NCBI GenBank assembly: GCA_905480575.1
Contig: CAJQQZ010000043.1
Coordinates: 1-44,619, forward strand
DNA from: an uncultured Alphaproteobacteria bacterium
Lineage (GTDB): Bacteria; Pseudomonadota; Alphaproteobacteria; UBA7985; CAJQQZ01
DNA: 44,619 bases
Reading direction: 5' to 3'
Numbering within the stretch: the first letter of the stretch is position 1; each line of letters opens with the position of its first letter. The notes below the pieces were generated by a model that worked only from the letters and a program-made list of their open reading frames with translations, was not told the DNA's origin and searched no databases. Shown one piece after another: positions 8,792 to 11,777 of this stretch. The position numbers and the translations under genes are program-made.

Positions 8792-9538
8792 CTATTCCGA
8801 TTTAGATCCTTGTTCTAAGAATCTAGAGACATAATCATCACAAAGTAAAATCGTGTGGCTGTTGCGCCTCCATTCTGCCTCTTGGTCACAGTGATCAAAG
8901 TTAAGGGTTATCTGTGAATGCCAATCAAATCGGCTGGCAAAGATTGCAATCCTTTCCAAAAGACCATTTTTCATCATGGCCTTTTTCATTGGTCCTTCAC
9001 CATAAATGACATTTACTTCGCGGGACAGCATTCCCTCTGGCATCCAAAGCGGGGACAGGGTTCGTCGCCAACTGCGTTCAACCTCTGGCGACGTAGTCTG
9101 ACATTTTCCCGCTTCGGACTGGCTAAAGCGGAACAGTTCCATAAAATCATGATTGTCTTCGGGATCAGAGCCGTAAAAGTGGCAAAGGGATCTAAAGGCC
9201 CGCCGGCGATCCAAAGGATACTCGCCTTGCAGGTCACGATCACGAAGCCCAGCTTGCTTGCTTTCCAAAAGCCAAGAAAGTGCCCGATCTTGCACGATTT
9301 CTTTTGCTTTTGTCGAGTCGAACTTACGGGTGTAGAAGGTTGCAAAATTGTCGGCCATTACTTCTTCGTTGCCCAAAACGGGCAGATCGAATTCGCGGAT
9401 CAGGGCATGGGCCAGTTCGTGCAGCAGGACGTGGGTTGCTACATTTTCAGCAAATTTTGAAAGTACGACGTCATTGCTGGCGGAAGCGGGCGGTGGGGAA
9501 ATAAACAGCATAATCATCAGTGCAATCAATTTCTTCAT
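8792..9538 (-). CDS. Secreted DUF4344 putative metallopeptidase
   Basis: A 248-residue protein with a signal peptide (MKKLIALMIMLFISPPPASA) and the zinc-peptidase signature HELAHALI at about residues 38-45, followed by an EEVMADNFAT segment that could supply a third ligand. This pattern matches the DUF4344 family, described as putative metallopeptidases; substrate unknown. Conserved family features such as the DLQGEYPLDRRR and CHFYGSDP stretches are also visible. It sits on the minus strand between the cyclase and the LuxR/hydrolase gene, with gaps of about 70 and 50 nt, so co-transcription with the LuxR/hydrolase gene is possible. Activity is inferred only from HExxH. Confidence 0.75.
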   Translation of the reverse strand: MKKLIALMIMLFISPPPASASNDVVLSKFAENVATHVLLHELAHALIREFDLPVLGNEEVMADNFATFYTRKFDSTKAKEIVQDRALSWLLESKQAGLRDRDLQGEYPLDRRRAFRSLCHFYGSDPEDNHDFMELFRFSQSEAGKCQTTSPEVERSWRRTLSPLWMPEGMLSREVNVIYGEGPMKKAMMKNGLLERIAIFASRFDWHSQITLNFDHCDQEAEWRRNSHTILLCDDYVSRFLEQGSKSE

Positions 9539-9589: not shown

Positions 9590-11335
9590 CTACTTAGAGT
9601 GAGGGTAAACTTGGTCCAGAATGAGATCGACTTCATTGAATAGAACGAGTTGGCCTGAGTTAGCCGAGCCCAGCAATGTGCAGTTGGGTAGTTTGGTGGC
9701 CCATTCTTCGGCAGCGCGAAACAAAACCACCTGGTCTTGCTCGCCGTGTACCAGCGTCAGCGGGCATTCGATTTTCATTGAACGGTCTGACCAATCTGAT
9801 GAAACAACTTTGATATCAGTCTGAAAAGCCTGCGGTCCTTGGCGGACGACAAAGTGAAATCGATCAAATATCAGTTTGGCAATGTCTGGATCCTTGGCCA
9901 GTTCACGGTCCACGTGGGCATCGTGAAACAGCAGATCCAGCATGCGTTCTTCCTGGGCACCCAAGACCAGACGAATACCGCCTCGGATCAGCAGTGGCAG
10001 TGCAGAGGGCATATAGCGCGCTGTTAGGCCAGCTATACGATGCCCTTTACTCATAGCCGTAAATTGCCAGCGGTCGACCATGGGTAAGGCTCCTGCCACA
10101 GAAGTGATAGAGGATACCCTCTCAGGGTTGTTGGCAGCAAAGGCGACGCCGTAAGATGTACCAGCCATATGGCCAAGGATTGACACTTTCTTAATACGAA
10201 GGTGGTCCAAAAGCTGGACAAGGCAGTTGGAAAACTCATCGAGCGCAGCGTCCGGATTTTGATAAGGATCGGAGCTATCAAAACCTGGTCTCGTTGGTGC
10301 AATAAGTTTGAGTCCACGTTTGAACAGTTGCTCGGTAAAGTCAGACCTGAAAACTGTGCTGTCTATTAGGCCATGTAAAAAAAGCACTGGAGCGCCCGTG
10401 TCCGGTCCAATTTCGACGTAATCGATATAACGGCCGTTTTTGAGCATGAACCGTTGGCGCTGCATTTGGCTTTGTGGGTCGTCGCCCTTTTCGTCGGCAA
10501 CCGGTGCAAGTCCAGTAGAGTGATCATAACGCTGAAGGAAGCCAAGGTGTCTAACGAGGTCAAGTTGTGATTCTAGCCTAGTCTTAGCAAGGATCGACTT
10601 AATCTGAGTTCTGACAGTATGGAGGGAGGTGTTGCGCGTTTCGGCAATTTGGCCAGCGTTTTGACCATCTGCTAGGAGGCGGATGACTTCAATCTCTGCT
10701 GCCGTCAGTTCGAAGTAATGACTGAGAGCGGCTAGGGTTTGAGGGTTCCAAACAGGAGCCAGGGATGTCAGCAATCCAGCAACCGCAGCATCTTCCTCAC
10801 AGTGAACCTTTGAAACGGCGAAAAGTGCAGGTGTCGCGCCGGCTGAGCTCGAAAGCTCTAGCAGTCCGACCATAGAACGAGTGCTAAGTTGTGCAGAAGA
10901 GGTTGTGCTTGGTTCCTCTTGCGCAATGTTTTGCAATAAGGTGAAGATTTTCCCGGGCGAAACGGATGTGCCATCGGCGAGGTCATTTAACATCTGCCCC
11001 TCGCAAACCATCAGTTGTGTGGTGGCCGATTGGTTAACGGCGATAACCTTTCCTTCTTTCGATAGCAGCAATGCCGGATTTGGGTCATGGGCAATGATTT
11101 CGGAAAGACGTAGGGGACGGGGCTCGATTTCAGCTTTCTGCAGCTGTTGAATAATAGTGGCGGCTCTCACCGTGTGGTCCGCCAATTCAGGATCATCCAA
11201 TAGGGTTGAATCAAGTTCTAAGGATCGATCAATCGCTTTGTCCCACTCTGCCAACAGTTTATCAAAGGACAAAGGATCGGTCACAACTTGATAGATGTAA
11301 CTGATCAACTGCATCTTAGATGAGTGGTCGTCCAT
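9590..11335 (-). CDS. LuxR-type HTH protein fused to a degenerate alpha/beta-hydrolase domain
   Basis: A large probable regulator of about 581 residues with three parts: an N-terminal PAS-like region (about 80-190), a LuxR-type HTH at about 208-266 (FELTAAEIEVIRLLADG, HTVRTQIKSILAKT), and an alpha/beta-hydrolase fold from about 305 to the end (VLFLHGLIDST oxyanion region). The nucleophile elbow reads G-H-M-A-G, with Met390 where Ser, Asp or Cys is expected. The usual catalytic His is also missing (SANSGQLV where a GH is normal), while an acidic residue remains in HGEQDQVV. The domain therefore probably binds a small molecule rather than hydrolysing it. The ATG at 11335 is chosen because GGGAG lies 5 nt upstream; ATG at 11347 or 11338 is also possible. 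Target genes are unknown. Confidence 0.85.
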   Translation of the reverse strand: MDDHSSKMQLISYIYQVVTDPLSFDKLLAEWDKAIDRSLELDSTLLDDPELADHTVRAATIIQQLQKAEIEPRPLRLSEIIAHDPNPALLLSKEGKVIAVNQSATTQLMVCEGQMLNDLADGTSVSPGKIFTLLQNIAQEEPSTTSSAQLSTRSMVGLLELSSSAGATPALFAVSKVHCEEDAAVAGLLTSLAPVWNPQTLAALSHYFELTAAEIEVIRLLADGQNAGQIAETRNTSLHTVRTQIKSILAKTRLESQLDLVRHLGFLQRYDHSTGLAPVADEKGDDPQSQMQRQRFMLKNGRYIDYVEIGPDTGAPVLFLHGLIDSTVFRSDFTEQLFKRGLKLIAPTRPGFDSSDPYQNPDAALDEFSNCLVQLLDHLRIKKVSILGHMAGTSYGVAFAANNPERVSSITSVAGALPMVDRWQFTAMSKGHRIAGLTARYMPSALPLLIRGGIRLVLGAQEERMLDLLFHDAHVDRELAKDPDIAKLIFDRFHFVVRQGPQAFQTDIKVVSSDWSDRSMKIECPLTLVHGEQDQVVLFRAAEEWATKLPNCTLLGSANSGQLVLFNEVDLILDQVYPHSK

Positions 11336-11777
11336 CATTTCTCCCATTGAACGAACATCGGATGATTCGCTTTTACCTGCACTACTCTACCACCTCTTCA
11401 GGCCATCAACATGGTCAAAAAAATCTAACACAAAAAAGATGCCTTACCTAATATTGGAAAATGGATTTCTTGCCGATCTTCAATCCTGGCTTGCTGTGTG
11501 AAGGATAATGGAAATGCGAGCGAGTTTTGGCCTTAAGAAGCATCAGCAAGGATGAATGATCACTACTGTGATCGCCACGAAATTAACGATTCTTACCAAG
11601 TTCATTTGTCATATTTACAAGATCGATTGAGTTATTGGCAGCAAATCCTGTTCGCAAACCAGCCAAAATCTATCGGCCAGCCCGATAAAAAGCACATATT
11701 TGGGTCAAATTGCGAAGGCACTCACAGGCAATTGCCACACAGCGGCGTTTCGTCACAAAAACTGCCCCTTATCCTGC
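11336..11777. other. Intergenic region upstream of the F0 ATP synthase operon
   Basis: About 440 nt with no convincing gene. A 79-codon frame at 11552-11791 has no family resemblance and no clear ribosome-binding site. The region must hold the promoter of the leftward LuxR/hydrolase gene. A perfect 6-bp palindrome GATCAC-TACT-GTGATC lies at 11558-11573. Confidence 0.6.

Follow-up and report, generated by a model that had tools for sequence, protein, structure and literature searches.

What is a hydrolase fold retained for once its catalytic residues are gone and it has become part of a DNA-binding regulator? The question is raised by a gene on a 44,619-nucleotide stretch of DNA (hereafter, the window) from an uncultured Alphaproteobacteria bacterium. 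It encodes a protein in which a PAS fold and a LuxR-type helix-turn-helix (HTH) precede an alpha/beta-hydrolase (ABH) domain. The evidence summarized below suggests that the ABH fold is probably retained for sensing a small molecule or gripping a partner and not for catalysis. The features discussed are as follows (coordinates are those of the window, residues are numbered from the first ATG):

9590..11347, minus strand: PAS-LuxR-alpha/beta-hydrolase fusion protein, 585 aa from the first ATG, a single open frame
11126..11329, minus strand: N-terminal helical region, residues 7–74, from structure prediction; Tyr19, Trp35, and His58 invariant in the 18 closest aligned members
10763..11107, minus strand: PAS fold, residues 81–195, from the predicted structure; below Pfam detection in the window protein
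10547..10708, minus strand: LuxR/GerE-type HTH, residues 214–267, from Pfam and a structure match
10463..10540, minus strand: linker, residues 270–295, poorly conserved, with low pLDDT
9596..10462, minus strand: ABH domain, residues 296–584, catalytic dyad lost; from Pfam, AlphaFold2, and a structure match
10160..10174, minus strand: nucleophile elbow G-H-M-A-G, residues 392–396, with Met394 (codon 10166–10168) replacing Ser
9779..10069, minus strand: predicted helical cap, residues 427–523, with invariant Asp480, Phe508, Asp511, and Trp519
9734..9736, minus strand: acid Asp538, retained, from the alignment
9650..9652, minus strand: Gln566 replacing the catalytic His, an invariant Gln in the 18 closest aligned members
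8792..9538, minus strand: DUF4344 putative metallopeptidase, exported; the next gene, about 50 bp downstream of the fusion gene

Gene and domain architecture

The true start of the gene is likely situated at 11335, the ATG of Met5, because the protein of a congener begins exactly there (MSDHSARMK aligned to MDDHSSKMQ); the same position had been given as the gene end in the initial annotation. The congener protein is 66% identical, carries the same catalytic substitutions, and is encoded at the same place, i.e., between the atp genes and the adenylate-cyclase/SMC pair. Since these substitutions recur in the congener and in many other species, a frameshift, an assembly error, chance, or a sequencing slip can be ruled out as their source. 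The frames of the relatives are open and free of stops.

From the N- to the C-terminus, the protein comprises a helical region, a PAS fold, the LuxR-type HTH, a linker, and the ABH domain. The HTH, pointed out earlier in front of the hydrolase domain, was recognized by Pfam (GerE, residues 214–267, E 2e-6, above the curated cut-off) and by VIA-align as similar to the HTH of DegU and NarL (Z 11). The PAS-like region suspected before it has also gained support: the structure predicted for residues 1–272 alone contains helices (7–74), a PAS-type order of elements (81–195), and then the HTH. The best Foldseek matches of this part were VqmA and EL222, both combining a PAS/LOV domain with a LuxR-type HTH, and other PAS domains were matched as well. 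In VIA-align, VqmA covered 162–169 residues with Z 11 and a large rmsd, the latter being expected if the PAS domain and the HTH are posed differently. The Pfam models of PAS domains reached E < 0.01 in only a few relatives. An autoinducer-binding domain before the HTH was detected by Pfam neither in the window protein nor among the families listed for 37 members. Hence, an N-acyl-homoserine-lactone receptor of the LuxR type was rejected: no such domain is listed, and a PAS fold occupies its place.

Catalytic positions in the window protein and its relatives

It is a well-supported conclusion that the C-terminal domain of the window protein is a hydrolase fold without the catalytic Ser and His. 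Pfam Abhydrolase_1 matched residues 320–570 (E 9e-21, above the curated cut-off), and the AlphaFold2 model (37 sequences) displayed a mean pLDDT of 87, with 85–98 per block across the hydrolase domain. In the model, Met394 sits in the turn between strand 388–393 and helix 396–406, i.e., at the nucleophile-elbow site; the His site reads SGQLV and harbors Gln566. The best solved match of the domain, by both sequence and fold, is 9wlv, an alpha/beta hydrolase of Microlunatus sagamiharensis: the family profile aligns with it end to end (E 4e-44), and the structural match has Z 31.9 and an rmsd of 2.2 over 284 residues. In contrast to the fused ABH domain of the window protein, 9wlv is unfused and possesses the Ser–Asp–His triad; its GWSGG aligns on GHMAG, with Ser at 394, and its GEGHL aligns on the SGQL segment, with His at 566. 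Thus, the G-H-M-A-G elbow with Met in place of Ser, the lost catalytic His (initially noted as SANSGQLV), and the retention of the fold despite both losses, all proposed from the window sequence, have been borne out.

The 18 closest aligned members, i.e., those ranking nearest to the window protein in the search, tell the same story. Their nucleophile column contains Met (13), Leu (3), Val (1), and Ala (1) with no Ser, Cys, or Asp, their His column is Gln in 18/18, and their acid is Asp in 18/18. The alignment of homologues suggested earlier as a check on the nucleophile column revealed no nucleophile nearby that would refute the loss: none of the 18 possesses an elbow nucleophile or the His. 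With the catalytic residues replaced in the window protein and in these members, the “dead hydrolase” interpretation stands well supported. Two of the members (L045 and L050) belong to a neighboring subclade, so the aliphatic/Gln pattern extends beyond the immediate clade.

The class search covered 385 genomes and returned full-length members from the window's own genome and 12 others; a scan of the genome contigs with the single protein as the query gave no matches. Additional members were obtained from genome contigs, including those of Gammaproteobacteria and Mariprofundus, and from plasmids of, among others, Rhodobacterales and Rhizobiaceae, and fusion relatives occur in many marine and soil bacteria. 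Public plasmid records label members of the family “alpha/beta hydrolase” or “LuxR”, though most of them lack the catalytic residues. No published description of the family was found in the literature searched, most subscription papers being outside its reach.

A Ser, Cys, or Asp nucleophile together with His is retained in only 7 of the 52 fusions tabulated, including those of Vibrio tapetis and Aliagarivorans (Cys), an Alcanivorax protein (Ser), and L008 and Ruegeria L112 (Asp). The fusions of V. tapetis (L064, 4803–6578) and Aliagarivorans (L059, 4365–6110) feature a Cys nucleophile (GFCGG) with His and the acid kept; given these proteins, catalysis may persist in part of the family. An active-looking fusion with Ser and His is situated at L068 (6194–7885). 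The Asp nucleophile of L008 (1486–3096; GYDVG) and L112 (3998–5635; GYDAG) is likewise accompanied by His, as in dehalogenases and epoxide hydrolases. In the dead fusions outside the Met/Gln group, the catalytic positions vary widely (Gly, Glu, Tyr, Ser).

Certain loci display peculiarities of their own. Tandem pairs of fusion genes (L045, 3036–6734; L043, 4974–8455) consist of one Met/Gln or Val/Gln copy and one more divergent copy. On a Limisphaerales contig (L067, 2590–4583), a LuxR frame and a hydrolase frame with an intact triad meet at an ambiguous base, possibly representing a single active fusion interrupted by a masked or uncertain letter. In Hirschia maritima (L066, 4431–6053), the PAS-LuxR head is followed by a tail so degenerate that Pfam finds no hydrolase match, and the gene adjoins that of a CS1-type usher (L066, 1115–4291).

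When 56 hydrolase domains were placed on a tree, the live/dead label required 6 changes (5–6 over the bootstraps), and the arrangement of all dead members as one clade was rejected (AU p 0.00057), which suggests that the catalytic residues have been lost more than once in the fusion family. The placing of the losses is only coarse, the root not being fixed (the two outgroup rows lie apart and several branches are long); the direction from enzyme to dead domain is taken from the active unfused relatives and from the AU test rather than from a firm root.

The dN/dS of the ABH domain was 0.06–0.14, like that of the remainder of the protein, in close pairs, which were used because synonymous sites are saturated between the two congeners and the value is undefined there. 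The mean entropy was 1.75 bits in the ABH domain, 2.19 in the N-terminal half, and 1.61 in the HTH, so the ABH domain is better conserved than the PAS/N-terminal half and approaches the HTH level. These sequence comparisons indicate purifying selection on the dead ABH domain, which, along with the invariant Gln566, suggests that the domain is kept for some function. Its invariant residues include Gln566, Asp538, His325, Arg353, Asp480, Phe508, Asp511, and Trp519. Most of them (His325, Arg353, Asp480, Asp538, Trp519) are shared with the active relative or with active fusions and hence may have a structural role; only Gln566 and the aliphatic residue at 394 set the dead members apart.

Neighboring genes and possible roles of the hydrolase domain

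The DUF4344 gene downstream of the fusion gene is a possible operon partner or target of the regulator. In the congener, where the flanks are syntenic, the downstream gene (L033, 6785–7609) encodes an exported protein of 275 aa that is unrelated and has an HExxH-like motif, and BLASTP between the two downstream products found no similarity. Since the downstream genes of the two congeners are dissimilar, the fusion gene is not assigned a conserved partner. Two inverted repeats upstream of it in the window, one of them GATCACAGTAGTGATC, were considered as an operator candidate and dropped, being absent from the upstream region of the congener.

Immediate neighbors at other family loci include genes for autotransporters, YadA-like adhesins, RTX proteins, a two-partner-secretion protein, CS1-type ushers, an HlyD protein, VWA proteins, and a Hint protein. 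Genes of secreted VWA-domain proteins are situated beside or near the fusion gene at L113, L115, L118, L112, and L010, being mostly divergently transcribed. Exported or surface proteins were the immediate neighbors at 11 of 31 family loci vs. 2 of 31 control LuxR loci (Fisher p 0.01), with categories defined post hoc, genes called by a simple script, loci not fully independent, and one of the two positive control loci, L066, being itself a related protein. The tendency of the fusion genes to adjoin genes of adhesins or other exported proteins is therefore suggestive and should be treated as a lead.

On balance, there is a somewhat better than even case for the fusion protein being a one-component transcription regulator whose hydrolase fold has turned into a receptor and whose likely targets are nearby exported-protein genes. 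DNA binding would fall to the PAS-LuxR half, presumably in dimeric form. The pocket beneath the helical cap, deprived of Ser and His, would bind a small, probably hydrophobic molecule without cleavage, and closure of the cap could shift the pose of the HTH or its dimerisation. The PAS domain possibly reads a second signal jointly with the ABH pocket; the genes controlled might include, in the window, the downstream DUF4344 metallopeptidase.

Ligand sensing, the role proposed from the window sequence, is the best inference for the ABH domain. It is favored, short of proof, by the invariant Gln and Asp at two catalytic positions. The catalytic loss with conserved replacement, its repetition, purifying selection, the exported neighbors, and the likeness of the PAS-HTH part to the ligand- or light-sensing VqmA and EL222 were also counted in its favor. 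On the other hand, the varied catalytic residues of other dead fusions would call for a variety of ligands or for none at all, sensing could be done by the PAS domain alone, and the invariant ABH residues, mostly common to active proteins, are possibly structural.

A non-catalytic structural or protein-binding role, the main competing explanation, fits the data nearly as well as ligand sensing. The dead domain would then hold the LuxR dimer together or dock a partner, with no signal coming from the pocket. The repeated catalytic loss with a conserved fold needs a scaffold only, the catalytic positions outside the Met/Gln group vary freely, and the HTH has a PqsE-RhlR fusion among its structural matches. 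Precedents are the stabilisation of RhlR by the hydrolase PqsE and the binding of Aes to MalT, neither of which requires catalysis. Still, a pure scaffold leaves Gln and Asp, each conserved in 18/18 at a catalytic position, unexplained, and this role is deemed rather unlikely. An enzyme with an unorthodox mechanism or nucleophile would be in line with the invariant Asp538 and oxyanion-side His325, and certain fusions elsewhere retain His together with Ser, Cys, or Asp. It is nevertheless improbable, as the 18 aligned members possess neither Ser, Cys, or Asp at the elbow nor His at its site, and the known alternative ABH chemistries (cofactor-free dioxygenases, hydroxynitrile lyases, dehalogenases) also rely on that His. 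Finally, a domain that persists passively from an old fusion, with the PAS-LuxR half doing all the work, is very improbable. Working PAS-LuxR proteins without ABH do exist (PimM and CfaR; PMC4380410), and the relative L066 has no recognizable Pfam ABH match, but the dN/dS range, the frames free of stops, and a conservation exceeding that of the N-terminal half seem hard to reconcile with such a relic.

Extending the receptor interpretation to the family is tentative and rather doubtful as yet. It would imply a family of bacterial transcription factors in which a hydrolase was placed behind a PAS-LuxR head, lost catalysis in separate lineages, and now serves as a small-molecule receptor controlling exported or surface proteins, as a single-protein counterpart of the hydrolase-to-receptor change known from hormone perception in plants. 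If the pocket does sense a ligand, the family would offer a tractable one-gene bacterial system, with active and dead relatives together, for asking how an enzyme turns into a receptor, which is at present addressed chiefly in plants. In that case, a chemical signal not yet described would also be indicated for marine and soil Alphaproteobacteria, perhaps one tied to attachment.

Relation to known regulators and hydrolase-derived receptors

The PAS-LuxR regulators PimM and CfaR of Streptomyces (PMC4380410), as well as VqmA and EL222, likewise combine an N-terminal PAS fold with a following LuxR-type HTH in one chain. These proteins end after the HTH, whereas the window protein adds an ABH domain of about 290 residues and a helical region before the PAS fold. 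Hence, the known part is a PAS-LuxR one-component regulator, and the new part is the added pseudo-hydrolase module. In the PqsE-RhlR and Aes-MalT pairs, a hydrolase-family protein acts on a LuxR-type regulator without the need of catalysis; there, the partners are separate proteins and PqsE is of another fold, whereas the window protein is a single chain.

Hydrolase folds used in signalling are also found in RsbQ (with RsbP) of Bacillus and in plant D14 and KAI2. RsbQ has an intact triad (Ser95, Asp219, His250) and a hydrophobic pocket proposed to bind a small molecule (PMC3436726). In RsbQ, D14, and KAI2, the triad is intact and the hydrolase is a separate protein; in the window protein, the dyad is lost and the domain is fused. 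The nearest functional parallel is plant GID1, a hydrolase fold with catalytic loss serving as the gibberellin receptor (residues Ser116, Asp289, and Val319 in GID1A; PMC3436726); for the window protein, the receptor role is a proposed one. GID1 keeps Ser and has lost only His, whereas the window protein has lost both. GID1 signals by binding DELLA proteins, and the window protein has a fused HTH instead; the two are compared by function, not as a related family.
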